Shown: piece by piece, positions 20,603 through 35,305 of the stretch
Layout: each line of letters begins with the position of its first letter
How positions within the stretch are numbered: the first letter of the stretch is position 1
Origin: an uncultured Caryophanales bacterium
GTDB taxonomy: Bacteria; Bacillota_I; Bacilli_A; RFN20; CAG-449
DNA length: 64,000 bases
Direction: 5' to 3'
Assembly (NCBI GenBank): GCA_945873815.1
Contig: CAMCEE010000001.1
Location: 139,897 to 203,896 of the forward strand
Notes under the pieces: generated by a model
What the model saw: the letters and a program-made list of their open reading frames with translations, nothing else
The model's database searches: none
Told to the model about the DNA's origin: nothing
Translations under genes and position numbers: made by a program

Positions 20603-22738
20603 ATGGAAATAAAAGAGAATATTTTGAAATTATTAAAAAAACATTCGCTTTCGGAAAAATTATTATTTGAATTCTTTTCAGATTCGAATGAGGTAAAAAA
20701 CGCAATTGAGGAATTAAAGGAAGAGGGTTTAATTGTTCAAGTTAGAAAAGAATATCATACAGCTGAATCATTGAATTTAAAAAAAGGAAGGATTGTTGCA
20801 ATTAAGAATGATTATTCTTTCGCTTCAATTGAAGGAAGCGATAAAGATGCTTTTATATATAATGAGAACTTAAATGGAGCGTTTTTGGGTGATGAAGTCT
20901 ATATAAGAGGTGGATTAACCAAATATTATGATTATGAAGAAGTTGTTTTTTCTATTATTAAAAGAGCAAGAACGAAAGTCGTTGGACAAATAAAACAATA
21001 TCATAACGAGTGGATTCTTGATGTGAAAGATATTGCTCCAAAAGAGATGACTTTTGTGATTAATCCTACTTCAATTAATCTTATTAAAGGTTCTATTGCT
21101 ATTGCTTCGATTGAAAAACAAAATAGAAATGTCACTTATGTAGATATCATTAAGATTCTTGGTGATAAAAAAGAACCGGGAATTGATGTTGAACAAATAA
21201 TATATAAGCATAATGCAGATATTGAATTTCCTGATAAAGTTAGAGAAGAAGTTAGTCTTATACCTAAGGAACTAACTGAAGAAGATTGTATTGGATATGA
21301 AGATTTTAGAGATCGAGTAATCGTTACTATTGACGGCTCAGATGCGAAAGATTTTGATGATGCAGTTGAAGTGAAAAAGGTGGATGATGGGTTTGAAATA
21401 GGTGTTCATATTGCCGATGTAAGCCATTATGTAAAAGCAGGTAGTTCTTTAGATGATGAAGCGCAAAATAGAGGTACTTCAATATATGTTGCAGATAGAG
21501 TAGTTCCAATGCTTCCTTTTGAATTATCAAATGGAATTTGTTCTTTGAATCCTCACGTAGATAGATTAGTCCAATCTTGTCTTTTTAAAATGGATTTTAG
21601 TGGAAATATTATTTCTTCAAGAATTACTCATGGAGTGATGAATTCTAAAGCTCGCTTGACATATTCTTTTGTTAATAAAATTTTAAAAGGTGAGGAAGTT
21701 GAAAGTACTTATTCTAAGGAAGTTCTTGATATGATTCCTCTATTAGAGGAAGCTGCAGTTATATTAAGAAATAAAAGGACAGTAAAGGGTGCATTGGATC
21801 TTGAAACTACGGAGATTAAGTTTGTTATCGATGAGAATGGGCAACCAATTGATGTGATAAAAAGAATTCAAGGAAGAGGGGAAAAACTTATTGAGGATTT
21901 GATGATTACTGCAAACGAGATTGTTTCAGAAACAATTGAAAAGATGAATTTACCTTTCATCTATCGTATTCATGAACAACCTCAATCTAAGAAGATGGAA
22001 ACATTTATGGGATTATCTAATCATTTAGGATATAAAACAAATTTTTCTTCTCTTACTGTTACTTCTAAGGAATTATCGTCTCACATGAAAAAAATCGATG
22101 ATGAGAAGATTAAATCTACCTTATCAATGATGTTATTAAGATGTCTAGCTAAGGCAAGATATTTAAATGAAAATAAAAAGCATTACGGATTAGCAAGTGA
22201 TTCGTATACGCACTTTACTTCACCAATTAGAAGATATCCGGATTTATTAGTACATCGTCTAATTGATAAATATTTAATCGATAAGAATTATGATAACCTA
22301 GATATACTTGAAAAAGAGATAGCGTTTATTGCGGAGAATTCTTCTTTCAAAGAAAGAAGAGCAATGACTATTGAAAGGGAAGTTCAAGATTTAGAAGCAT
22401 GTAAATTTATGTCGAATAAGCTTGGGAATCGATATAAAGGTTTCATAAATGGAATGACTAAAAATGGAATGTTTGTAGAATTGGATATCGGAATAGATGG
22501 GTTTATTGATTTTGAATATATAGATAATGATCTTTACATATTCGATGAAAGAGATATGACAGTGATTGGGAAATGGTCAAAAAGAGTATTTTCTCTTGGT
22601 GATAAGGTTGAAGTGGAAGTTGTTAGCGTAGATGTTAATACTCGTCATATTTCTCTTCAATTAGTTCAAGATGGTAATAGAAGTTTTGAAAAAAGAACCA
22701 AAAGGAAGAAAAAGAAAAAGAATACATATTGGTACTAA
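20603..22738 (+). CDS. rnr: Ribonuclease R (3'-5' exoribonuclease)
   Basis: RNase R degrades structured RNA and, with SmpB/tmRNA, non-stop mRNAs. Domains in order: an N-terminal winged-helix-like segment, cold-shock-type OB folds, the RNB catalytic domain with TIDGSDAKDFDDAV near residues 239-252 (metal-binding aspartates) and IGVHIADVSHYV, then a C-terminal S1 domain ending in a lysine/arginine-rich tail (KRTKRKKKKK). The length of 711 residues is normal. It lies upstream of smpB. Confidence 0.96.
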   Translation: MEIKENILKLLKKHSLSEKLLFEFFSDSNEVKNAIEELKEEGLIVQVRKEYHTAESLNLKKGRIVAIKNDYSFASIEGSDKDAFIYNENLNGAFLGDEVYIRGGLTKYYDYEEVVFSIIKRARTKVVGQIKQYHNEWILDVKDIAPKEMTFVINPTSINLIKGSIAIASIEKQNRNVTYVDIIKILGDKKEPGIDVEQIIYKHNADIEFPDKVREEVSLIPKELTEEDCIGYEDFRDRVIVTIDGSDAKDFDDAVEVKKVDDGFEIGVHIADVSHYVKAGSSLDDEAQNRGTSIYVADRVVPMLPFELSNGICSLNPHVDRLVQSCLFKMDFSGNIISSRITHGVMNSKARLTYSFVNKILKGEEVESTYSKEVLDMIPLLEEAAVILRNKRTVKGALDLETTEIKFVIDENGQPIDVIKRIQGRGEKLIEDLMITANEIVSETIEKMNLPFIYRIHEQPQSKKMETFMGLSNHLGYKTNFSSLTVTSKELSSHMKKIDDEKIKSTLSMMLLRCLAKARYLNENKKHYGLASDSYTHFTSPIRRYPDLLVHRLIDKYLIDKNYDNLDILEKEIAFIAENSSFKERRAMTIEREVQDLEACKFMSNKLGNRYKGFINGMTKNGMFVELDIGIDGFIDFEYIDNDLYIFDERDMTVIGKWSKRVFSLGDKVEVEVVSVDVNTRHISLQLVQDGNRSFEKRTKRKKKKKNTYWY

Positions 22739-22812
22739 TAAAAGTTTTTGAATTTTATAAAGAATTTGCTAAAATATAAAAGCAATGTATATATTGTTAG
22801 AGGAGAAAAGGA

Positions 22813-23262
22813 ATGGAAAATGTTAAGGTTATTACAACAAATCGTAAAGCTCATTTTGAGTACTTTTTGTCTGACAATTTAGAAGTTGGAATTGAATTGA
22901 AAGGAACGGAGATTAAATCTTTGAAATTCCATGGATGTTCATTAAATGATTCTTACGTAGTTATTAAAAATGGGGAAGCATATATTTTAGGGATGAATAT
23001 TGCTCCTTTCTATAAAGGCAATATCTTTAATCATGAGCCATTAAGAACAAGGAAACTTCTTATGCATAAAAGAGAGATTCTTAAATATGGACAAAAGGTT
23101 AAAGAAAAAGGTTTTACTATTGTTTGTACGAAAGTTTATTTAAAAAATGGTAAAGCAAAATTAGAAATTGCTCTAGCAAAAGGTAAAGATTTATACGATA
23201 AGCGTGAAACGATTAAAAAAAGAGATCAAGAAAGGGCAAGAAGAGATGGAAGAGAATATTAA
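22813..23262 (+). CDS. smpB: SsrA-binding protein SmpB
   Basis: SmpB binds tmRNA and is needed for trans-translation. It shows VGIELKGTEIKSL near residues 26-38, LNDSYVVIKNGEAYILGM near 44-61, and the basic C-terminal tail KKRDQERARRDGREY that enters the mRNA channel. The length of 149 residues is normal. The ssrA RNA itself is not in this window. The next gene starts inside its 3' end. Confidence 0.96.
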   Translation: MENVKVITTNRKAHFEYFLSDNLEVGIELKGTEIKSLKFHGCSLNDSYVVIKNGEAYILGMNIAPFYKGNIFNHEPLRTRKLLMHKREILKYGQKVKEKGFTIVCTKVYLKNGKAKLEIALAKGKDLYDKRETIKKRDQERARRDGREY

Positions 23263-23851
23263 TGTTTTAGAAGACTATCTTTTTAGCGGTCTTAGCTTTT
23301 CTACTTTTAAATTCGATGATGCTTCTCTTTTGGCATGTAAATGTTATTTGATGAGATTTGAATTCTTTAAAAAGAAATACTATAGAGCTTTACATCAATT
23401 ATTTAGTGGAACTAGTATTGATGGTTTAGATTTTAGAAAAGAAAAGTATTATATTGCGCAAATTGTTAAAGCATTGAAAAATTCTAGTATATTGATTTCA
23501 GAAAATCCAAAAGAGATAAAAATATATAAAAAAATAAGGAAAAATGCTAATTCCATTACTTCTAAAGATTTATCTATCGATGATTTGCCTATAGAAACAA
23601 AAAATAAAAAAGCTTGTCTAATAGTTGAAAAAGATGAGGATAGAATGAAATATCAAGATATTATCAATGAATTTAGAAATATTCATTTTATTGTTCTTGA
23701 TAAGATTGAAGATGAAAGTTTTATTTATGATCAAATTAAAGTGAAAATTCTTCAAGACGAAAGCGATATCTATTTTGTTGGAAAAAGTTTTTATGCTAAT
23801 TATATCGCTAATTCTATCTATGATGTCAATTTGATTGCGATTCATCTATAG
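23246..23851 (+). CDS. Hypothetical protein overlapping the smpB end
   Basis: I do not recognise this 201-residue protein. The start was placed at the ATG at 23246, which lies 17 bases inside smpB and is preceded by AAAGGGCAAGAAG. That arrangement indicates translational coupling to smpB. The product looks soluble and basic, with an N-terminal helical part (about residues 1-80) rich in aromatic and lysine residues. A later alpha/beta-like part includes KACLIVEKDEDRMKYQ and alternating hydrophobic strands (IHFIVLDKI, IYFVGKSF, VNLIAIHL). There are no membrane spans and no catalytic motif that I can name. Confidence 0.6.
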   Translation: MEENINVLEDYLFSGLSFSTFKFDDASLLACKCYLMRFEFFKKKYYRALHQLFSGTSIDGLDFRKEKYYIAQIVKALKNSSILISENPKEIKIYKKIRKNANSITSKDLSIDDLPIETKNKKACLIVEKDEDRMKYQDIINEFRNIHFIVLDKIEDESFIYDQIKVKILQDESDIYFVGKSFYANYIANSIYDVNLIAIHL

Positions 23852-23894
23852 ATTAGAACAAGATGATTTCTATATGTGAAGATAAAGCGAAAAC

Positions 23895-23916
23895 GGGTTA
23901 AAAACCCTTATTTTTT
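23895..23916 (+). terminator. Weak intrinsic terminator after the smpB unit
   Basis: GGGTT and AACCC pair around three A and are followed by TTATTTTTT. The stem is short, but the T tract is good. Confidence 0.6.
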
Positions 23917-24055
23917 GCATATTTTTTTTATTATTCTTGACTTTCTATGCTATTTATTATTAATTAATACATAGGTAGAAAAATATTCATTTTTTTATTA
24001 TATAAAAAATTCAAAATATGTATGTATATTTAGATATTTAGGAGGAGAAAAAAAT

Positions 24056-26278
24056 ATGAAAAAGAATACAAAGATTAGTCTTGTTTCATTGATTGCAGTT
24101 TTATCTCTCTGTGGATGTGGAGGTACGTCATCAGGAACTACTTCTTCAGCAGGAGGTAATACTACAAGTGGAACAACATCTGAGAATGGTGGAAGTGGTG
24201 TTAATAGTGGAGCAACATCAGGGAATGGTGGAAGTTCTTCAGAAGTAGGAATAAATATTCTTCCTGCAGTTGACATCGATATCAGCGATGAAAATGATGC
24301 AGAAGACAATGTTTATGATGGAGTTTTTGGAGAATATATTAAATTATATGAAAAAGCTCAAGAACTTTCTGATTGCTCAGAAAGATACGTTGCATTTGCT
24401 AAAGCAGAAGCAGCTTTATTAGATTCTGCAGCATTTGTTCCAACTACTACTGATGGTGGATCTTATGCGATCACTCACGCAGCATTTAGAAGTTTACCAT
24501 ATTCTCAAAGTGGTTATGATAGTTCAAAACTCAAGACTGCAGTTATTAGTAAAAAATTAGTTACTAGAGCAGAAAGAGATGAGATGGAAGTTTTATGGAA
24601 TGAAGCAAAAGAAAAAGATACAAAATATGATCCAGCTGCTTATTTAATTAGCAAAGGACATGAATTAGATACAACTTATAAAGCAACATTCTCTTCAATT
24701 CCTGCAACTCTTGATATTCACGATACATCTTTAGCTTCAGATACAGATTATCTCGTTCAAGGAATAGATGGATTAGTCGAATACGATAATTTAGGTAATA
24801 TTAAGCCTGCAATTGCTGAATCTTGGGAGGTTGATAATACAAAAACAGTTTATACATTTCATTTGAGAAACGATGCAAAATGGTATAGATCAGATGGAAC
24901 AGTATATGGGGAAGTTACTGCACAAGATTTCGTTGATGGATTCCGTCATATGTTAGATACTAAATCGGGTTTAGGCGATTTAATTAAAGGCGTTGTTAAA
25001 GGCGCTAAGAGATATGGAAGCGGAAAAGAATTAAACTTCAATAAAGTTGGTATGAAAGCAACTGATGCTCATACATTAGTTATTACTCTTGAAAAAGAAG
25101 TTCCTTATTTCTTATCTATGTTAACATATTCACCATTTGCACCATTAAATGGCACATTCTTCTTAAACCAAGGAGGTGCATTCGGTGTTTCTGAATTTAA
25201 AACGGCAAAAGGTAATACTGCTACTTATAAATATGGTATTAAAGGTAAACCTGAATCAATTCTTTATAATGGTGCATTCCATTGTACAAGAATGGATGAT
25301 ACTAGCTCTATAATTTATGAGGCAAATAATGGATATTATAATTCTTCTGCAGTAAAAATTAAAAGAATCGAATACGTTTATAATGATGGTTCAAATATCA
25401 CTCAACTTTATAGAGATGTTGTAGATAATAAATATGTTGGTATCGCATTAAATGACGATTTATTACAATTAGCAAAAGACGATGGAAGATTTAAGAATAA
25501 TGCTTACGTTTCAAAGACAGGTTCTACAACTTATTTCTTAGGCTATAACTTATATAGAACATGCTTTGATGCTGCTGGAACTGATCTTGATTCAAAAAAA
25601 TCAAGTGATGAAAAGAATAAGACTCAATTAGCAATGTTAAATAAAAACTTTAGAAAGGCATTATCATTCGCTTTTGATAAGAGAACATGGAATGCTTTCT
25701 CTTCAGGTAATGATTTAGCAGACGCTTCTTTAAGAAATATGTACACATCTCCTACATTCGTTTCTTTAGAAAAAGATGTCACTGTTGATGGTACAACGTT
25801 CAAGTCTGGCACAACATATGGTGAATTAGTACAACATTACATCGATACAAATTATCAAGGTACAATTAAATGTGCAGATGCTCAAGATGGTACATATAAT
25901 CCAAGTTTTGCAAAAGCATATATGGCTCAAGCGGTTAATGATTTAACAAAAGATAATCCTAATTTCTTTAGTACACCAGTTAAGATTGAAATCATCAATT
26001 ATAGTGCACAAGAATCATCAATTAACCAAGCAAATGCTTATAAGAGACAAATTGAAGAAATCTTAGGTTCTGATAAAGTTCGTATTGAAATTCTAAACAC
26101 TCAAACACTATCGGATTTTTATTCAGCTTCATATTATGCAAACTTTGGTAACGAAGTATGCTACGACTTATATTGGGGTTCAGGATGGGGCCCAGATTTC
26201 GCAGATCCATCATCATATTTAAGTACATTCTTATATGATGGCGAAGGCTATATGACAAAGGTTGTTGGACTATATTAA
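24056..26278 (+). CDS. oppA: Oligopeptide ABC transporter substrate-binding lipoprotein, apparently circularly permuted
   Basis: This 740-residue OppA/AmiA-type (SBP_bac_5) protein captures peptides outside the membrane. It has a lipoprotein signal (LSLCGC, Cys21 as likely lipidated residue), then a Ser/Gly/Thr-rich tether (22-62). Residues about 89-190 (SERYVAFAKAEAALLDS, VPTTTDGGSYAITHA, SLPYSQSGY, RAERDEMEVLWNEAKEK) match the segment that normally forms the extreme C-terminus of Streptococcus AmiA/AliA proteins. The usual N-terminal opening (ELDTTYKATFSSIPATLDI) only begins near residue 203. The protein then runs in normal order through PAIAESW, VTAQDFVDGFRHML, ILYNGAF and WGPDFADPSSYLSTFL. 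It stops at GYMTKVVGLY, just where the moved segment should follow, and a terminator comes next. In this fold the two ends lie close together, so a permutation is feasible. The operon continues into oppBCDF. Confidence 0.93.
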   Translation: MKKNTKISLVSLIAVLSLCGCGGTSSGTTSSAGGNTTSGTTSENGGSGVNSGATSGNGGSSSEVGINILPAVDIDISDENDAEDNVYDGVFGEYIKLYEKAQELSDCSERYVAFAKAEAALLDSAAFVPTTTDGGSYAITHAAFRSLPYSQSGYDSSKLKTAVISKKLVTRAERDEMEVLWNEAKEKDTKYDPAAYLISKGHELDTTYKATFSSIPATLDIHDTSLASDTDYLVQGIDGLVEYDNLGNIKPAIAESWEVDNTKTVYTFHLRNDAKWYRSDGTVYGEVTAQDFVDGFRHMLDTKSGLGDLIKGVVKGAKRYGSGKELNFNKVGMKATDAHTLVITLEKEVPYFLSMLTYSPFAPLNGTFFLNQGGAFGVSEFKTAKGNTATYKYGIKGKPESILYNGAFHCTRMDDTSSIIYEANNGYYNSSAVKIKRIEYVYNDGSNITQLYRDVVDNKYVGIALNDDLLQLAKDDGRFKNNAYVSKTGSTTYFLGYNLYRTCFDAAGTDLDSKKSSDEKNKTQLAMLNKNFRKALSFAFDKRTWNAFSSGNDLADASLRNMYTSPTFVSLEKDVTVDGTTFKSGTTYGELVQHYIDTNYQGTIKCADAQDGTYNPSFAKAYMAQAVNDLTKDNPNFFSTPVKIEIINYSAQESSINQANAYKRQIEEILGSDKVRIEILNTQTLSDFYSASYYANFGNEVCYDLYWGSGWGPDFADPSSYLSTFLYDGEGYMTKVVGLY

Positions 26279-26306
26279 TTTATATATAAATTAGTTTAAT
26301 GCTTTT

Positions 26307-26342
26307 AATGGGGAATTCTTTCGAGTTATTCCCCATTTTTTA
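26307..26342 (+). terminator. Terminator/attenuator between oppA and oppB
   Basis: AATGGGGAAT pairs with ATTCCCCATT and is followed by TTTT. Such a hairpin after a binding-protein gene usually yields excess oppA mRNA over the membrane subunits. It also shows that the oppA frame really ends upstream. Confidence 0.88.
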
Positions 26343-26398
26343 TTGCTTATATCAGGGGTTTAGTTTAAAATACCTATGATAAGGAGTCGTGTAGATAT

Positions 26399-28363
26399 AT
26401 GGGAAAGTATTTATTAAAAAGAATCGTATATTCCATTTTTTCTATAATCTGCGTCATGATCGTAATGATCTTCTTGCTTTTCACATTAAAAGATAAGGAA
26501 GTTATCTTTCAAGGTGATCCACTTTTATCAAAGAAACAAGGAAATGACAAAGAGTATTATAAGAATTCTAAATGGGAGAAATACGGATACATTGACCTTG
26601 TAGAATTTGAAACATATATTAACGAGAATTATAGTAAAACTCTTGATTATGAGGAATATGAAAAGGCGATGTATTTACCAAATGATGAAAAGGATGATAT
26701 AAAGAATCCTAAGATTCAAGAATTCATCGATTATTATGAAGCAAGAGGTTATACAATCACTAGATTATATTCTCAATATTCTGGTAGAGGTGATAATAAA
26801 GAAGTTAAACCTGGTTATGATCCTTACTTGTTTGCAACTAAAAATCATAGTACTTTCCATCGCTTAGGTTCATTCTTTAGTAATATGTTTACTTTTGAAA
26901 CAGTAAATGATGTTGATAATTTTGTTAAAGAGAATGAATTAGAAATTACAAAAGGGTATTATGTTATTAATAGCGTTAACGAATGGGATGATTTCTATAA
27001 ATATTGGGGAGCAAAAAACTTTAAATTAAATCTCAATAGTGATTTATCAGATGATGATGTTAAAAAATATATCGTTAATATTGGTGTTTTCGAAGAAGAT
27101 TTAGTAGAAGCATACGAATGGAACGTCATGTATTATGATGGTGAAGGTACATTTACAAAATTGTTTGAAAATAACCTTACTATTGATGAGACAGGAGAAT
27201 ATTATTTTATTCTTAATGTTGAAAAAGATGCTAATGGCATTTTTAATAAATTCTCTGGTGAAACATTGCTCAGTGGCTCTAATCCAGTTAGTAAAAAGGA
27301 AAAAGGCTCATTAATTGAGGTTGAAAATAAAGGAATTCAAATCATTTGGGATGAATATAGTAATATGCCTGCTTTAGTAGGAAATGGTACTACACATCGT
27401 TATTTAATCTATTTTGACGATAAATTCCCATTCATTCATCAAAATATTGTTCACTTTAGTTTAGGTTATTCTAATGATGACAATGAAGTATTAAGTAAAT
27501 TATTTGATCAAACTGGTGAGATTCTATTAAAAGAACAAGAATATCCAGCAAATCTTGGAACAGGAATTACGGAACCTACTTCTTTAGATTTCCATACTGC
27601 TACATATTCGTATTCTTCTGTTCTATCTAGTGAAGAAATAAGTAAATTTGGTTCGAGGTATACTGTATGTGAAGTTCATAAGAAAGATGTTTCAAGAGTA
27701 GCTTATTCTTTCTTTATTGGTATTATGGCAACTCTTCTTGCATACTTTATCGGTATACCTTTAGGTATCTTGATGGCTCGTAAAAAAGATAAATTAACAG
27801 ATAAGATCGGCATGGGATATATTATCTTTATCATTGCAGTCCCTTCACTTGCTTATATTTATATGATCACTGCGATTGGTTCACAATTATTTGGTCTACC
27901 AAACAATTTTGCTGATTCGACAGTTAGTGCAAGATGGTTATTATATGTATTACCTGTTGTTTCTCTTGCAATGCCTGGAATTGCTGGTGAAATGAAATGG
28001 GTAAGAAGATATATGATTGACCAAGAGAATTCAGATTATGTTAAATTTGCTCGTTCTCAAGGTTTAAGTGAGAAAGAGATCTTCTCAAAACATATTTGTA
28101 AGAATGCAATTATTCCAATTGTACATGGCATCCCTGGTTCGATTATTGGATGTTTAAGCGGTGCATTTATTACTGAAAAAGTTTATTCGATTCCAGGTAC
28201 TGGTGGATTGCTAGTAAACGCTATTACAAATACGGATAATGGGTTGATTTTAGGATTAACATTCCTCTTCTCAACATTATCGATTATTTCATTAATTCTA
28301 GGTGATATTCTTTTAACTGTAGTTGATCCTCGAATTTCATTCTCATCGGGAGGTCGTAACTAA
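26399..28363 (+). CDS. oppB: Oligopeptide ABC transporter permease OppB/AmiC with a large extracytoplasmic insertion
   Basis: This is a permease subunit of the peptide importer. It has a first span at residues 8-30, then a soluble region of about 390 residues. The canonical BPD_transp_1 domain begins near residue 430 (YSFFIGIMATLLAYFIGIPL). The EAA-type coupling loop lies at YVKFARSQGLSEKEI near 545-559. Standard OppB has 300-odd residues. Streptococcal AmiC has about 500 with a similar external insert, recognisable here in HRYLIYFDDKFPFIHQNIV. At 654 residues this protein has more than 150 extra residues in the same loop. Its stop overlaps the oppC start (TAATG). Confidence 0.93.
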   Translation: MGKYLLKRIVYSIFSIICVMIVMIFLLFTLKDKEVIFQGDPLLSKKQGNDKEYYKNSKWEKYGYIDLVEFETYINENYSKTLDYEEYEKAMYLPNDEKDDIKNPKIQEFIDYYEARGYTITRLYSQYSGRGDNKEVKPGYDPYLFATKNHSTFHRLGSFFSNMFTFETVNDVDNFVKENELEITKGYYVINSVNEWDDFYKYWGAKNFKLNLNSDLSDDDVKKYIVNIGVFEEDLVEAYEWNVMYYDGEGTFTKLFENNLTIDETGEYYFILNVEKDANGIFNKFSGETLLSGSNPVSKKEKGSLIEVENKGIQIIWDEYSNMPALVGNGTTHRYLIYFDDKFPFIHQNIVHFSLGYSNDDNEVLSKLFDQTGEILLKEQEYPANLGTGITEPTSLDFHTATYSYSSVLSSEEISKFGSRYTVCEVHKKDVSRVAYSFFIGIMATLLAYFIGIPLGILMARKKDKLTDKIGMGYIIFIIAVPSLAYIYMITAIGSQLFGLPNNFADSTVSARWLLYVLPVVSLAMPGIAGEMKWVRRYMIDQENSDYVKFARSQGLSEKEIFSKHICKNAIIPIVHGIPGSIIGCLSGAFITEKVYSIPGTGGLLVNAITNTDNGLILGLTFLFSTLSIISLILGDILLTVVDPRISFSSGGRN

Positions 28364-29343
28364 TGGAAAAAGAACCTATTATCATGAACGACGGATTAGA
28401 TGGTTTATTTGAATTCGTTGATACTGATTCGTTTGAATCAGAAAAGATTACTGCTCCTCGTTATTCTTATTGGAAATCGGTAGGTAGAGTATTCTTTAGA
28501 AAAAAATCAAACTGGGTATTTTTAGGAATATTAGTTTTGATCTTATTTATGTCATTCGTTTGGCCTTTATTTCAACCATTCTCGTTGAATGATCCTGCGA
28601 ATGAGAATTTATTGCATCCGGAAACGTTCAATAATTCTCCAGCTGAATATTTCATGTCTCATCCATTTGAATTTAAATACATATTGGGTACTGCTTCAAA
28701 TGGTGATTCATTATGGAATAAATTATGGACCGCTTCAAGAACATCTCTTTCCTTGGCGTTTATTTGTACAATAATAAATATGGCTATTGGTATTGTTCTT
28801 GGTGCGATTTGGGGCTTGTCAAAGAAATTTGATCTCATTATGACTCAAATTTATAGCATTATAGGAAGTATTCCTAGCGTGTTATTATTCTCTGTATTAT
28901 CGTATGTTATTGGTGTTGGATTCTGGAGCTTTGTTCTTGCTTTGACAGTCACTGGATGGTTAGGTATCGCATTCTTTATCCGTACGCAAGTTATTATTAT
29001 TAGAGATCGTGAATACAATCTAGCATCAAAAACATTAGGTACGAATATCTTTACTATCGCATTTAGGAATATTCTACCATTTATGATTTCAGTTATCGTT
29101 ACATTAATTGCTACTGAATTACCATCATATGTTTCATATGAAGTATTCTTATCTTATATTGGAATCGGATTATCTGCAAACGATGTTTCAATCGGACAAA
29201 TGATTAACGCTGCATCTACTAGTTGGATGATTAGACCATGGCAATTCTGGCCACCAGTTATTGTTTCTGCAGTCGTATCAATCGTTTTATATGTTGTTGG
29301 TCAAAACGTCGGTGACGCTTCTGATCCAAGAACACATATGTAA
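28363..29343 (+). CDS. oppC: Oligopeptide ABC transporter permease OppC/AmiD
   Basis: This is the second permease subunit, 326 residues. A short cytoplasmic N-terminus leads into a first span (WVFLGILVLILFMSFVWPLF). An external loop containing HPFEFKYILGTASNGDSLWNKL, here split at the GTASNGDSLW motif typical of OppC, precedes the five-span core. The EAA loop is NLASKTLGTNIFTIAFRNILP. It starts on the last base of oppB and precedes oppD by 15 bases with GGGAGG between. The length is normal, unlike its partner OppB. Confidence 0.95.
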   Translation: MEKEPIIMNDGLDGLFEFVDTDSFESEKITAPRYSYWKSVGRVFFRKKSNWVFLGILVLILFMSFVWPLFQPFSLNDPANENLLHPETFNNSPAEYFMSHPFEFKYILGTASNGDSLWNKLWTASRTSLSLAFICTIINMAIGIVLGAIWGLSKKFDLIMTQIYSIIGSIPSVLLFSVLSYVIGVGFWSFVLALTVTGWLGIAFFIRTQVIIIRDREYNLASKTLGTNIFTIAFRNILPFMISVIVTLIATELPSYVSYEVFLSYIGIGLSANDVSIGQMINAASTSWMIRPWQFWPPVIVSAVVSIVLYVVGQNVGDASDPRTHM

Positions 29344-29358
29344 GGGAGGTATAGAGTT

Positions 29359-31134
29359 ATGGAAAATAGCAAAAAAGCTTTATTATCTCTAAAAAATGTA
29401 GAAGTAAAATTTAAAGTTAGAGGAAGACAATTAACGGCAATTAGAGGAGTATCTATGGATATTTATGATGGAGAAACTCTTGCAATAGTTGGTGAATCTG
29501 GCTCAGGTAAATCGGTTTTAACAAAAACATTCTCAGGAATGTTAGATTCAAATGGTTTTATTTCTTCAGGATCAATTATTTTAAATGATGAAGAGATTTC
29601 TAATACCATTCTTCCTATGAATAAAGCTACTAATAAATTATTGGATATTGTTAGAAAAAAGCTTGATGTATATTCTAAATATGAAAATGCTAGGAAGTAT
29701 TATTTAGATTTGAAATCGATAGATGATGAATTCAATAAAAAATGTACAATTGACGAAAGTGAAAATGAAGAATTCGAAAAAGAAATTAAAGCATTGAACA
29801 ATGCATATGTCGATACGCAAAATGATTTGCAAGTTCTTGATCGTAAAGTAGATAAAGAAGAAATCGAAAAATTGAAAATTAAACTAATCGAACTTAAAAA
29901 AGAAATTGATTTAAAGACAATTGCACATCGTAATTTAGTTGATATGCGTAGAAGAAATGTACTTGCAGATAAAGAGTATATGGATTCAATTAGGAAAAGA
30001 AAGGCTGATTTGAATTCTTTAATCGAAAAAGAAATATCAAAACCAGTTAAAAAAGAATATTTAGAAAGAAATGAAAAACTTGCAAAAGAGATTCTTCTTT
30101 CATCAAGTAGATATACATTTAAAGATTTATTCCTATTAAGTTTTAAATTATTAAGATGTTTTAAAAAAGCGATGATGAGCGGAGCTGATTTATTAAATGA
30201 GGATGAAATCACTTCAGTATTTGATAAAGTTAATTTCCGTGTGCAATATGAAGAAACTTTAGAAGATGGCGCATTGAAAGGACATGCGATTATTGATTTA
30301 GCTAAGATTAAAAATCCGATGGATTGGCAAAGAATTAGAGGTACGAGAATCTCTACTGTCTTCCAAGATCCTATGACTTCTTTAAACCCTATTATTACTA
30401 TTGGAAATCAAATTTCTAATGTTATTATGAAACATCAACATGTTTCAAAAGCGGAAGCAAAAGAAAAGGCTCTTGAAATGATGAGAGCAGTAGGAATTAC
30501 AAATCCAGAAGATAGATATGATGATTATCCTTTCCAATATTCTGGTGGTATGAGACAAAGAATTGTTATTGCAATTGCATTATCATGTGCACCAAAAATT
30601 TTGATTTGTGATGAACCTACAACTGCATTAGATGTTACGATTCAAGCACAAATTCTTAAATTAATTAAAAAATTGCAAAATGAATACAAGTTTACAACAA
30701 TTTATATTACACATGATTTTGGAGTAGTTGCAAATGTTGCAGAAAGAGTTGCAGTCTTGTATGCTGGACAAGTTATCGAATATGGTCAAGTAGAAGAAAT
30801 ATTCTATGATCCACGTCATCCATATACCTGGGCACTTCTTTCTTCACTTCCTCAATTATCGGTTATTGGAGAAGAATTATATTCGATTAAGGGTACTCCA
30901 CCTTCTTTATATAATAAGATTAAAGGTGATGCATTTGCGCCTAGAAATCCTTATTGTATGAAAGTTGATTTAGTGGCAGAACCACCATATTTCAAGATTA
31001 GCGATACACATTATGCTAAAACTTGGTTATGTGATCCACGTGCACCAAAGGTTGAAAAACCAAAGAATATACGTAATCTACATGAGCAACTAGAAAAGAG
31101 TATGTATAATTCTAAAAATATGAATTTAAAGTAG
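29359..31134 (+). CDS. oppD: Oligopeptide ABC transporter ATPase OppD/AmiE with a predicted coiled-coil insertion
   Basis: This ATPase subunit has the Walker A motif GESGSGKS (residues 45-52), Q-loop VFQDPMTSLNP (near 333-343), signature YSGGMRQR (near 394-401) and Walker B LICDEPTTALD. The C-terminal oligopeptide-type domain has a cysteine cluster region (YCMKVDLV, WLCDPRAP). OppD proteins are usually about 350 residues. Here 591 residues are present because roughly 230 residues (about 83-312) are inserted between the first beta region after Walker A and the Q-loop. The insert is charged and heptad-like (EENEEFEKEIKAL, EEIEKLKIKLIELKKEI, LERNEKLAKEI) and is predicted to form long coiled coils. 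The reading frame and motifs are intact on both sides. Confidence 0.93.
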   Translation: MENSKKALLSLKNVEVKFKVRGRQLTAIRGVSMDIYDGETLAIVGESGSGKSVLTKTFSGMLDSNGFISSGSIILNDEEISNTILPMNKATNKLLDIVRKKLDVYSKYENARKYYLDLKSIDDEFNKKCTIDESENEEFEKEIKALNNAYVDTQNDLQVLDRKVDKEEIEKLKIKLIELKKEIDLKTIAHRNLVDMRRRNVLADKEYMDSIRKRKADLNSLIEKEISKPVKKEYLERNEKLAKEILLSSSRYTFKDLFLLSFKLLRCFKKAMMSGADLLNEDEITSVFDKVNFRVQYEETLEDGALKGHAIIDLAKIKNPMDWQRIRGTRISTVFQDPMTSLNPIITIGNQISNVIMKHQHVSKAEAKEKALEMMRAVGITNPEDRYDDYPFQYSGGMRQRIVIAIALSCAPKILICDEPTTALDVTIQAQILKLIKKLQNEYKFTTIYITHDFGVVANVAERVAVLYAGQVIEYGQVEEIFYDPRHPYTWALLSSLPQLSVIGEELYSIKGTPPSLYNKIKGDAFAPRNPYCMKVDLVAEPPYFKISDTHYAKTWLCDPRAPKVEKPKNIRNLHEQLEKSMYNSKNMNLK

Positions 31135-31143
31135 GAGGCAAAT

Positions 31144-32091
31144 ATGACAGATAATAATGAAAAAGATGTAATTATTTCTCTTAGAAATGTCGATATTTCC
31201 TTCGGACGTGGTAAGAAAGCATTTAAGGCAGTTTCTAATGCTTCATTTGATATATATCGAGGTGAGACATTTTCTTTAGTTGGTGAATCGGGTTCAGGTA
31301 AAACAACTATCGGAAGAGCAATTATTAGAATCAATCAATGTTCAGCTGGTGAAATATTATTTAATGGACAAAGAATATCTGGTAAACTTTCTCATTCGCT
31401 TGAAAGAGAAGTTATACGTAAGATTCAAATGGTTTTCCAAGATCCTGCTGCATCATTAAATGAAAGAGCAACTATTGAATATATTATTTCAGAAGGTCTA
31501 TACAACTTCCATTTGTACGAAAATGAAAAAGATCGTATTGAAAAGATCGAAAAGATTATTCAAGAGGTAGGTCTTCTCCCTGAACATTTAACAAGATATC
31601 CACATGAATTTTCAGGTGGACAAAGACAACGTATCGGACTTGCTCGTGCAATTGTTATGGAACCGGAATTCATTATCGCGGATGAACCTATATCTGCGCT
31701 TGATGTTTCAATTCGTGCACAAGTTTTAAATCTTCTAAAGAAATTCCAAAAAGAAAAAGGATTAACATATTTATTTATCGCACACGATTTATCAATCGTA
31801 AGATTTATTTCAGATCGTATTGCGGTTATTCATAAAGGAGATATAGTGGAGATTGCTCCTTCGGAAGAATTATTCAATCATCCACTTCATCCATATACAA
31901 AATCGTTAATGTCGGCAATTCCAGTTCCAGATCCACTTATTGAGAAGAATAAGGAATTATTTATTTACGATCAATCAATGCATGATTACTCGATTAATAA
32001 ACCTCAATTAGTAGATATTGGAAATGGTCACTTTGTGTTTGGAAATGAAGAAGAAATCGAAAAATATAAAATCGAAAGAGGAGAAAAATAA
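31144..32091 (+). CDS. oppF: Oligopeptide ABC transporter ATPase OppF/AmiF
   Basis: This is the second ATPase, 315 residues, of normal size. Walker A is GESGSGKTT near residues 44-52, Q-loop [16 protein letters not shown], signature [14 protein letters not shown], Walker [13 protein letters not shown], and the H-loop histidine is in FIAHDLSIV. The C-terminal [16 protein letters not shown] is the usual OppF tail. It starts nine bases after oppD, with AGGAGG overlapping the oppD end, and closes the opp operon before a terminator. Confidence 0.96.
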
Positions 32092-32093
32092 TT

Positions 32094-32119
32094 AAGTGCA
32101 TTTGATTATGCACTTTTTT
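32094..32119 (+). terminator. Intrinsic terminator after oppF
   Basis: AAGTGCAT and ATGCACTT flank a six-base loop and are followed by TTTT. It lies three bases after the oppF stop, just before the next gene. Confidence 0.85.
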
Positions 32120-32126
32120 AAGATTT

Positions 32127-33416
32127 ATGAGAAATAAAAGATTTGAAAAAAAGAAAATAGATATTAGTAATAAGAATATTAAACTTCGGATAAGTATTTT
32201 TATTCTTGCTTTAATTGTTGCTTTAGGGTCTTTTATTTTTGGAATCAATGCATGCGTCAATTCATCTTCTCCAAATAAAGGGTGGAATTTATATAACCTT
32301 AAAGATTATTATGATTCAAGATATGAAGGTTATAATGAAAATGTGTATTTGAATTATTTCATAAACGATGGGAACAAAAGTGAAAATAAAAGGATTATTG
32401 ATTTATTGTGTTTATCTGCAAAAGAAGTTTATTCAATGATCGATTCTAATAAAAAACACTCATATGAAGTTAATGGGATTGGATATATTAATTCACATAT
32501 AGGGGAAAATATCGAAATATGTGAAGAATTATACAAGATATTATCTGATGCTAAGGAAAAAACATATGAAGAGAATTCTTCTTATTCAATGTTCTCTGGT
32601 TTGATTCAAGATTATTGGAAATATCTTATTCCTAATGTTTCAAATTCTTCTTATAGAGAACCTGGATATATAAAAGATTACGTCGATTTTTCAAAGGATT
32701 TATCAAATTTTAATTTAGATTTAAAAAAGGAAGAAGATAAATATTTTGCTAAATTTACCATTTCAGATGAATTAAAAGACTTTATTAATGAAAGCAATCT
32801 ATATGATGTTTCAATTCTTGATTTAAATACTCTTTTTTACAGTTATTATTTGGATGGAATTTATTCTCGTTTTAAGGATAATGGGTTAAATAAAGGGTAT
32901 TTATATACTCATACTGGAGAGATTATCTTTATGAATGATTCATTCCTCGAATCAAATGGAATAAGATTATATGATTCTTTATCGTATGATCAACCATTTG
33001 TATGTGGACTTCTTGAGATGAATAATGCTTCATATGTCTCATCAATTAGATCGTTCCCAGTTTTTAGTGAATATGAAAAAGAATATTTCTTCACACAAAT
33101 TCCTTCTAGTAATAATTCTAGAAGTATGTTTTATGATTATAGAACTGGATATAGTCAAAATGTGATTAAGTCTTCCACTTTAGTTGATGAAGATATGTCT
33201 TCATCTTTAGTCGATCTTACATTTAAGAATCTAAATGTTGTTAACAGTACAGATTATAATGCTTATAAGGGTCTTCCATCATCTATATGTGGATGTTTGA
33301 TATTATCTTCAGAAACAAATAAAATGTATTTACGAAATGCAAAAGATTATTTTAAAAAGGTTTATAATAATAAGGGAGAGTTGATCGATTACGAACTGAT
33401 AATGATTTTAGATTAA
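32127..33416 (+). CDS. Diverged ApbE-like (FAD:protein FMN transferase-like) membrane-anchored protein
   Basis: This is a 429-residue exported or membrane-anchored protein: basic N-terminus, hydrophobic span at about residues 20-40, then INAC, which could be a lipobox. Several stretches recall ApbE flavin transferases. An NIEICEELYKILSDAKEKT helix followed by SSYSMFSGLIQDYWKYL resembles the ApbE A-x-x-x-S-x-x-T-x-G-x-F-D region. DYRTGYSQNVIKSSTLV near 332-348 resembles the ApbE D-P-x-T-G-Y-P-x-x-x-x-x-x-S-V-T-V strand. The D-A-L-S-T motif appears reduced to VDLTF. Catalytic competence is doubtful. It starts seven bases after the oppF terminator and appears to stand alone. Confidence 0.5.
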   Translation: MRNKRFEKKKIDISNKNIKLRISIFILALIVALGSFIFGINACVNSSSPNKGWNLYNLKDYYDSRYEGYNENVYLNYFINDGNKSENKRIIDLLCLSAKEVYSMIDSNKKHSYEVNGIGYINSHIGENIEICEELYKILSDAKEKTYEENSSYSMFSGLIQDYWKYLIPNVSNSSYREPGYIKDYVDFSKDLSNFNLDLKKEEDKYFAKFTISDELKDFINESNLYDVSILDLNTLFYSYYLDGIYSRFKDNGLNKGYLYTHTGEIIFMNDSFLESNGIRLYDSLSYDQPFVCGLLEMNNASYVSSIRSFPVFSEYEKEYFFTQIPSSNNSRSMFYDYRTGYSQNVIKSSTLVDEDMSSSLVDLTFKNLNVVNSTDYNAYKGLPSSICGCLILSSETNKMYLRNAKDYFKKVYNNKGELIDYELIMILD

Positions 33417-33481
33417 TTATTAGTATTATATATAGAGTCATTGTAGAACCATGAAATGATTGACTTATATTACAATGTTTA

Positions 33482-33510
33482 TTGAAATGTATTTTATGAT
33501 TCTTTATAAT
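33482..33510 (+). promoter_or_regulatory. Promoter for the acidic-tailed membrane protein gene
   Basis: TTGAAA (33482-33487), 17 bases, then TATAAT (33505-33510). The predicted start of transcription is only about a dozen bases upstream of the ATG at 33530, just leaving room for GGGAG. Confidence 0.7.
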
Positions 33511-33529
33511 TTGGAGTAAGGGAGCGAAT

Positions 33530-35305
33530 ATGAAAAGAAAAATATTACTTATCATTCTATTATCATTGGAATTTATAATGTATTTTTTGTTCACTTTATG
33601 TAAGGTCAATGTTGGACTTCAAAGTGTGCCTCCTTTTAATATTATTTATATTATTGCATTATGGTTTCTTGATGTTACTAATTCAATGATGAATGGATTG
33701 CACTTAAATAGTTTATTTAATGCAATGCTTGGTAACGAACTTCCAAATTTTAACATTTTCTTATCGATAGTATTCTTTAATATCATTTTTATTATTCTTT
33801 ACATCGTTATCGCTGATGTCGTTACTCTTATCACGAATAATGTTAGAGATAAAAAGGTTAGGAAAATCGTTGCAAAATACGAATTATCTTCAAACGAATA
33901 TGATAAGTTTAATTACAAGCATTATATGTCTCGTTTTCCGCTAAAAAGGCCTTTATCTTTGATTATTCCTTTGTCTTTTTCTTTGCTATTTATCTTTACT
34001 AGATTTGATGCGACGATTTGCAATGAACTAAATAGTGTTAATAAAGGTGGTTTGTCTGTTTCAAAAAATGTTATAGAACCATTATTTAATGAATTATTGA
34101 AGCCTATTGATTTTCATGCATGGTTAATCGATGTTTATAAGGGATATATTGGAGGCATCGATACTGTTTTTCGTGGCTTTACTTGGATTGAATATGTATT
34201 TATCGTTATTGGTGTAATAGCATTATTATTTATTTGGTACGGATTCTTTACATTAATTCATTTGATTATTAGAAAGCCTTGCGCTAAATATAAGGCTAAT
34301 AAGGATAGAATTAATTATGTTCGTAAGATGGAATATATTGAATATAAACTAAAGAATAAATACAAAGATGAAACATCAATTAAATCTGATGAATTTATGC
34401 ATATTGTTGAAAAAGAACAAAGAGAAGCTGCAAGAGAAATTGCAAGGTTTAAGAAAAATCCAGAGGATGAACAAAAAGAAGCTAGAGATAGTGAATTGAA
34501 GAAGAAAGCATATTATGAAGAAATTGGCCAAGGAGTTACAGATTTAGGTGTATCTAATGAGAATCCAATAGATTTTGATACTCCTATTGTTGAAAGACAA
34601 GTAAAATACATTTCTGATGAAGAAGTAGATATTATCCTTGATGAAGAACCGGTTATTGAGATAGTTGAGGATGATAAAGAAGAAAGAAATATTGAATTTG
34701 GAAGAGAGAGTGTTTTCTTTGAAAGATATCAACCTGATGATTTTGAAATTAAAACAGTAGAGGAGTATTCAGGTTTATCATTTAGAAATGAAGTTCCTCC
34801 TAACGAAGAAAAAGAAGTAGAACCAATTATAACTGAAAATGATAATTTAGTTGAAAATGAAGATAAAGAAGAAAAAGTAACGATTAATGAAGAAGAGACT
34901 CCTATAGAGATAAAAGAAGATATTCCTTCTAAGGAAGAACATATAGAGGAAGTAATAAAGGAAGATGTTTCTTCTAATGTAGAAAATGTAGAAGAGGAAA
35001 TAAAAGAAGAGGTTACTCCTATTGAAGAAAGTGATTCTTCTAATACTCTAATAGAAGAAACAAACGATGTTTTGGAAATTAAGGAAGATGAAACTCTTTC
35101 TCTAGATAAAAATGAGGAAAAGGAAGAAGAAACGATAATAGAAGCAAATAATGAAGATATCGTTTCTGATACTAATGAAGAAAAACCGGTTAAGGTCGAT
35201 CCTTTTGCAAAATGGAGAGGAAGAAGAAATGCTCCAGGATATGGCGCAAAAAGAGTTCCATCATTTAAGGAATTAAAAGAAAAATTAAAAGAAGATTTAA
35301 AGTAA
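33530..35305 (+). CDS. Uncharacterised membrane protein with long acidic tail
   Basis: I do not recognise this 591-residue protein. The first 250 residues carry about five membrane spans (near 3-24, 36-53, 77-101, 143-160 and 222-249). A basic, helical juxtamembrane region follows (about 255-330). A long, very acidic, low-complexity region runs from about 355 to 555, with recurring IKED/EEVIKED/EEIKEEVTP units. The last 35 residues switch to a basic, conserved-looking block (PFAKWRGRRNAPGYGAKR, then VPSFKELKEKLKEDLK). The layout, membrane anchor plus disordered acidic arm plus basic end-motif, suggests a tethered interaction arm, for example to a cytoplasmic partner. No function can be assigned. 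Confidence 0.75.
   Translation: MKRKILLIILLSLEFIMYFLFTLCKVNVGLQSVPPFNIIYIIALWFLDVTNSMMNGLHLNSLFNAMLGNELPNFNIFLSIVFFNIIFIILYIVIADVVTLITNNVRDKKVRKIVAKYELSSNEYDKFNYKHYMSRFPLKRPLSLIIPLSFSLLFIFTRFDATICNELNSVNKGGLSVSKNVIEPLFNELLKPIDFHAWLIDVYKGYIGGIDTVFRGFTWIEYVFIVIGVIALLFIWYGFFTLIHLIIRKPCAKYKANKDRINYVRKMEYIEYKLKNKYKDETSIKSDEFMHIVEKEQREAAREIARFKKNPEDEQKEARDSELKKKAYYEEIGQGVTDLGVSNENPIDFDTPIVERQVKYISDEEVDIILDEEPVIEIVEDDKEERNIEFGRESVFFERYQPDDFEIKTVEEYSGLSFRNEVPPNEEKEVEPIITENDNLVENEDKEEKVTINEEETPIEIKEDIPSKEEHIEEVIKEDVSSNVENVEEEIKEEVTPIEESDSSNTLIEETNDVLEIKEDETLSLDKNEEKEEETIIEANNEDIVSDTNEEKPVKVDPFAKWRGRRNAPGYGAKRVPSFKELKEKLKEDLK

Follow-up and report, generated by a model that had tools for sequence, protein, structure and literature searches.

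OppA-type proteins are the textbook substrate-binding proteins (SBPs), and the solved OppA-type structures compared here have one common chain order. In pneumococcal AliD, for which a construct of residues 28-652 was used, lobe 1 is made up of residues 29-63, 191-296 and 583-617 (the last being the end of domain I) together with domain II (64-190), lobe 2 comprises residues 297-582, with helix a19 (622-652) packed against lobe 1 (PMC11192437). In AliB, W500 and D503 hold the N-terminus of the peptide, and the modelled AmiC ectodomain touches lobe 1 and AmiD touches lobe 2 (PMC11192437). One natural SBP, the ABC-transporter lipoprotein TpMglB-2 (Tp0684) of Treponema pallidum, a cluster Bc protein, is circularly permuted and still binds its ligand (PMC4990184), and natural permutation by duplication, fusion and truncation has been reviewed for DNA methyltransferases and saposin/swaposin (PMC3320104).

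In the window, that is, the whole stretch of 64,000 nucleotides that was analysed, oppA codes for a protein whose chain order, judged by its sequence, is a circular permutation of that in every cluster C binding protein of solved structure. The gene very probably encodes an Ami/Opp-type binding lipoprotein permuted by duplication, fusion and truncation, the permutation having at least two origins and one reversal.

The gene and its operon

The open reading frame at 24056-26278 (forward strand) encodes a 740-aa lipoprotein preceded by a ribosome-binding site read from the sequence (AGGAGGAG, 24040-24047). Its signal peptide and lipobox (MKKNTKISLVSLIAVLSLCGC, 24056-24118) end in Cys21, the predicted lipidation site, the conservation of which in A2 is at least 90%, and are followed by a low-complexity, Ser/Gly/Thr-rich disordered tether (residues 22-80, 24119-24295; pLDDT below 50 for residues 18-62). 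Next come the permuted block (residues ~81-190, 24296-24625; pLDDT 91-98), homologous to canonical C-termini, and a new linker (residues 191-205, YDPAAYLISKGHEL..., 24626-24670; helix 193-199 in the model), which joins the old C-terminus to the old N-terminus. The block is the counterpart of the extreme C-terminus of canonical OppA/AmiA, namely the end of lobe 2, the final domain I strands and helix a19. The SBP core occupies the remainder (residues 206-740, 24671-26275; PF00496 at 7e-40, AliB 7-497, Foldseek match to 8qlj), and stops at the point where canonical proteins run on into the block. Within it, W711-G-P-D714 (26186-26197) is equivalent by position, in the PDB phmmer alignment, to W500/D503 of AliB. 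A terminator-like hairpin (26307-26337, forward strand; -13.6 kcal/mol, z -3.1) followed by a T-run lies in the gap between oppA and oppB. The Cys lipobox, the Ser/Gly tether, the quoted motifs, the GYMTKVVGLY ending and the terminator after the stop codon, all of them given in the first-pass annotation, could thus be recovered from the sequence.

The gene is the first of an oppABCDF operon, all on the forward strand, and is followed by oppB (26399-28363; NF043081), a permease of 654 aa with a large extracytoplasmic insertion, oppC (28363-29343; permease, NF043080, 7e-97), oppD (29359-31134; a long-form ATPase of 591 aa, NF043079, 3e-208) and oppF (31144-32091; ATPase, NF043078). The order SBP-oppBCDF was kept in every locus with enough flank, and W711 and D714 were invariant in all 65 permuted sequences. 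Binding proteins are usually in excess over their permease, which the hairpin between oppA and oppB would fit. Since the genome has just one other PF00496 protein, far diverged, the window OppA is its only Ami-like SBP; it is most likely, from homology and gene context, the binding protein of the adjoining OppBCDF importer, and would accordingly bind oligopeptides, as its homology and the oppABCDF operon suggest.

Other features of the operon may be recorded. In the window OppD (29359-31134), the Walker A region is separated from the remainder by a coiled-coil-rich insertion of ~230 aa, which is common to the group 1 operons defined below and resembles the minimal-mycoplasma OppD family NF043079. 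Downstream of oppF, a 429-aa protein (32127-33416) belongs to no known NCBIfam family, and diverged homologues occupy the equivalent position in many operons of group 1. A coupling of chain order to the size of the OppB ectodomain was considered and rejected, since the canonical relatives of each group are similar in size (525-674 aa in permuted group 1 operons vs 500-517 aa; 385-420 aa in group 2 vs 381-415 aa). OppD length ranges from 585 to 753 aa in group 1, with 614 aa for the operon of L140, the apparently reversed protein treated below, but it had to be discarded as a strict marker of permuted operons, since a group 2 operon (L245) also has 634 aa from stop to stop; it can serve only as a supporting one.

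Homology of the two segments

In phmmer searches against the PDB, window residues 206-734 matched AliB chain residues 7-497 (247.6 bits) and residues 91-190 matched AliB 515-615 (17.2 bits), the corresponding pairs in AmiA being 207-724 with 15-496 and 89-186 with 522-623, and AliD also aligned in two separate stretches. With a single sequence the block match is weak (i-E 0.004-0.03). A profile built from 28 homologous blocks and searched against the PDB chains matched AliD 508-613 (5.6e-15), AliC 519-617, AliB 515-612 and AmiA 521-624, with values ranging from 6e-15 to 4e-11, and weakly DppE 451-490, always at the C-terminal end of the chain; the sole further match in this search was insignificant (E 0.65). 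Near canonical relatives (L008 and L139), with a core ~40% identical to that of the window, carry the same block at the C-terminus (95 bits against the block profile).

The Pfam family PF00496 covers residues 249-730 of the window protein (137.7 bits vs a curated cut-off of 32.4), and no Pfam family was matched when the N-terminal 201 residues were run through hmmscan, as is to be expected since PF00496 spans just the middle. Annotation pipelines therefore miss the block: because both Pfam and NCBIfam matches span the core only, the N-terminal ~200 residues pass for an orphan region. Both segments are homologous to one canonical protein, with their order swapped, the block at 81-190 preceding the core and no copy being left at the original place. 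Proteins with two blocks or partly duplicated intermediates were absent among ~160 proteins. The pattern seen in residues 89-190 had been assigned in the first-pass annotation to the extreme C-terminus of AmiA/AliA-type proteins, an assignment borne out by the separate matches of block and core to PDB chains, and by the block profile as well. Block homology and conserved order together support a circular permutation of a cluster C binding protein.

A second, unrelated PF00496 lipoprotein, with an ORF of 874 aa, was met during this work (L278/L279, G000:C21:8722-10584, minus strand; homologues L280-L283). Read by eye, a block resembling an SBP C-terminus (YDERTKILGLLESYAVKNNLTGMTMFENGSYVMY..) lies close to its N-terminus and its core is followed by another domain, so that it might represent a further permuted family; this idea gained no support from a PDB search or from comparing profiles with the OppA block.

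Predicted structure and lipid anchor

An AlphaFold (AF2) model computed from the 65 permuted sequences has a mean pLDDT of 90.4 and a pTM of 0.88, nearly all residues lying above 90 except the signal peptide and the tether. The block reaches 91-98 in every ten-residue segment and is modelled as helices 82-102 and 107-123, strands 127-132 and 137-140, and helix 171-187. Foldseek matched the model to AliB, AmiA and AliD (E below 1e-39), best of all to AliB and AmiA (538-539 columns, TMt 0.75; rmsd 2.8 for AliB), and the bilobed fold with the extra domain II is present in the model. As a control, the model of L140, in which the block is C-terminal, gave 635-638 columns, TMt 0.87 and rmsd 2.8. Foldseek is an order-dependent aligner, and the shortfall of ~100 columns relative to L140 would match the out-of-order block of ~100 residues. 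Model confidence, conserved residues and these column counts suggest the place of the block in the fold. A permuted yet complete fold, as first put forward, thus agrees with the domain-wise homology, the conserved order and the Foldseek comparison, and the block belongs in the model to one well-packed protein instead of a separate unrelated domain.

The boundaries of the moved segment can be read from AliD. The construct 28-652 and a chain of 627 residues would give a numbering offset of ~25, by which chain residues 508-613 correspond to residues ~533-638; the moved block therefore appears to start in lobe 2, to cross the last strands of domain I and to end in a19. The first-pass annotation had taken it for the closing segment of lobe I: its move to the N-terminus stands, whereas a purely lobe I origin does not, since by the AliD boundaries it begins in lobe 2. 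Both old termini, on lobe 1, would now be joined by the short linker. With the cut in lobe 2, the exit point of the lipid tether should shift from lobe 1 to lobe 2, and the changed attachment of the anchor, likewise claimed beforehand, finds support in homology, conserved order, the model and Foldseek. Since AmiC and AmiD touch different lobes, this relocation could be relevant for docking.

Distribution of the permuted order

Contigs of species representatives were scanned with the block and core profiles, 80 loci being kept out of many more that matched, and the permuted order was found in all 80 and in many genomes of the order. Full-length frames could be classified as permuted in 102 cases and canonical in 46, some of them redundant between collections. 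Overall, the same order, in single open frames of diverged sequence, occurs in more than 100 independent MAG loci or assemblies. By record title the permuted examples are all MAGs or uncultured, mostly from gut and rumen Bacillota, the taxon names in the titles being taken with caution. The permuted order is not peculiar to the window genome, and the orthologues expected in related genomes do exist.

Some relatives are larger. At L105:5874-10010 a permuted OppA is fused to, or in frame with, leucine-rich-type and SLH-like repeats, and at L119:6599-9628 another has a C-terminal extension of repeats, these domains having been named by eye.

Evidence for two origins and a reversal

Core-only, core+block and block-only trees agree on two groups, and core and block share one evolutionary history, which argues that the block was not grafted from elsewhere. 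Group 1 contains the window protein and most permuted proteins, with canonical outgroups (L008, L139 and others of the same class). The permuted members of group 2 are L012, L013 and L144, of which two belong to the same genus as the window. Beyond a branch with strong support, they are found in the company of the canonical proteins L146, L147, L210 and L237. On the SBP sequences, a tree constrained to unite every permuted protein was worse by 337 lnL units (AU p=2.7e-9). Both groups end at an equivalent residue, GYMTKVxGL[YWF] in one ending and GDMVEQLGF in the other, each directly before the stop, where canonical chains continue. The internal linker of group 2 (DGWISLANAGENP..YTVGG) resembles the stretch between lipobox and domain in the canonical proteins of that group (GYTSLLNENENP..YYTV), and may represent the old N-terminal tether trapped inside, as duplication, fusion and truncation predict. 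Moreover, permuted blocks of group 2 are up to 65% identical to that of canonical L147. It would follow that the permutation arose independently at least twice at the same lobe-2 loop. Within group 2, monophyly of the permuted proteins was rejected on the permease/ATPase tree (p=5e-75), where permuted and canonical operons interleave, whereas a single origin was not rejected on the SBP alone (p=0.36); further order switches and transfer of SBP genes between operons are both possible.

The opposite change is represented by L140 (G164; operon in L240), the block of which is C-terminal. L140 nests inside group 1 in the core+block tree, the block tree and the OppBCDF tree (100 and 98); its placement outside the permuted clade was rejected on the operon (AU p=4e-8) and, on the SBP alone, was borderline and narrowly not rejected (AU p=0.051). 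Its N-terminus starts FITSKERAEMLEQWEAAF..YNPAKYLTDKGYTL, the stretch that follows the block in permuted proteins, and its internal linker (..EAPAAGTYGREADVDVY) resembles the pre-block tether of permuted lipoproteins (..YVRGDDNA.Y). This nesting, combined with relics of both permuted junctions, points to a reversal. The AlphaFold model is confident (pLDDT 90.5, pTM 0.89). The reversal is documented in one MAG, no homologue having been found at the search threshold in 25 other genomes of its genus. In the simplest reading, L140 would stem from a permuted gene that was permuted again, this time with the cut immediately ahead of a19, which gave a third topology.

At the smpB-opp locus (L243 in G002 and L244 in G001 vs window 20603-35305), species of one genus differ in their opp operon, which is of group 1 in some and of the far-diverged group 2 in others, with a homologue of ORF591 downstream in G002 too. 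The whole operon was apparently replaced in place, both versions having permuted binding proteins.

Proposed mechanism and alternative explanations

The break in the chain would lie in a lobe 2 surface loop, immediately after the GWGPD..DPxxYLxxF...GL segment, so that the old C-terminal block, formed by a pair of helices from lobe 2, the strands returning to domain I and helix a19, now precedes the core, with a linker of ~15 residues tying it to the old N-terminus. An in-place duplication and fusion of oppA followed by truncation is the probable origin, and relics of the old termini are present at the junctions, the group 2 linker holding the canonical N-terminal tether and L140 the permuted tether and linker. 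At least two independent events at this loop would have produced the permutation, and a single reversal would have used a different cut. The chain should still fold into the usual bilobed Venus-flytrap, capture peptides through their N-terminal amine at D714 and pass them to OppBCDF. It is likely, furthermore, that the lobe-2 loop is a recurrent and reversible permutation point, with at least three order switches (two forward, one reversal), possibly more in group 2, each shifting the lipid anchor from one lobe to the other without change to operon, fold or binding site.

A mis-joined contig in the window MAG might be suspected in a 39-contig assembly; the recurrence of the order, in diverged sequence, in more than 100 independent assemblies, and the single open frames with ribosome-binding site, signal peptide and operon, leave it a negligible probability, and misassembly is ruled out by the orthologues. 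Grafting, whereby the SBP lost its C-terminus and gained an N-terminal block from a distantly related SBP, has been raised as a possibility for TpMglB-2 (PMC4990184), and block and core do differ in evolutionary rate. It is nevertheless very unlikely, since the same two groups emerge whether the tree is built from the block or from the core, and every permuted block clusters with canonical blocks of its own lineage, as exemplified in group 2 by the resemblance to L147.

The identical cut loop in both groups would also be expected from a single permutation, with the group 2 resemblance due to recombination and not to independent origins. This was deemed very unlikely given its rejection on the SBP sequences and the group 2 linker (DGWISLANxxENP..YTVGG), which matches the canonical N-terminal tether of group 2, unlike the group 1 linker. 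Regarding function, the extra surface domains beside the SBP in L105 and L119 might suggest a surface receptor or scaffold not engaged in peptide transport, the block-first order being tolerated drift, but the gene lies directly upstream of OppBCDF wherever flanks suffice, the binding-site motif is invariant and no other Ami-like SBP exists in the genome, so that such a role seems very unlikely. Permutation by duplication, fusion and truncation in a working binding protein thus remains the preferred explanation.

The finding is broader than the earlier annotation, comprising at least two probable origins, one apparent reversal and a cut in lobe 2. It represents a natural experiment in which a protein chain was re-ordered without apparent loss of the fold. 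A large gut clade, its near canonical relatives, the second origin and the reversal provide matched natural pairs in which the effects of chain order and anchor on folding, capture and docking can be compared.

Comparison with known systems

DNA methyltransferases and saposin/swaposin have folds unrelated to that of the window protein, and for the methyltransferases partial intermediates are documented (PMC3320104), whereas none was found for the present family. TpMglB-2 has a cluster B sugar-binding fold, in which strands of the N-lobe passed from the N-terminal to the C-terminal end, the reverse of the change in the window protein; its permuted part is poorly conserved, and the portion of the paper used here mentions no second origin or reversal (PMC4990184). 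Permuted SBPs are therefore known in cluster B, and the open-access literature searched yielded no account of one in cluster C, in keeping with the new topology first proposed for this cluster.

The minimal-cell OppA of Mycoplasma and Spiroplasma (NF043077, MMSYN1_0169) belongs to the same bacterial class and to a similar operon, and the OppD model of that type, NF043079, spans the window OppD almost end to end. Permutation of the Mycoplasma OppA was considered and rejected: unlike the window protein, these proteins are canonical in order wherever their block could be located, which is consistent with that order being ancestral in the class. Closest of all, pneumococcal AmiA, AliB, AliC and AliD (PDB 8a42, 8qlj, 8qlh and 8qlc) share with the window protein the family, the blocks including a19, the W..D amine-binding motif and the type of operon, and differ from it in block order, with the core preceding the block and an N-terminal lipid tether on lobe 1.
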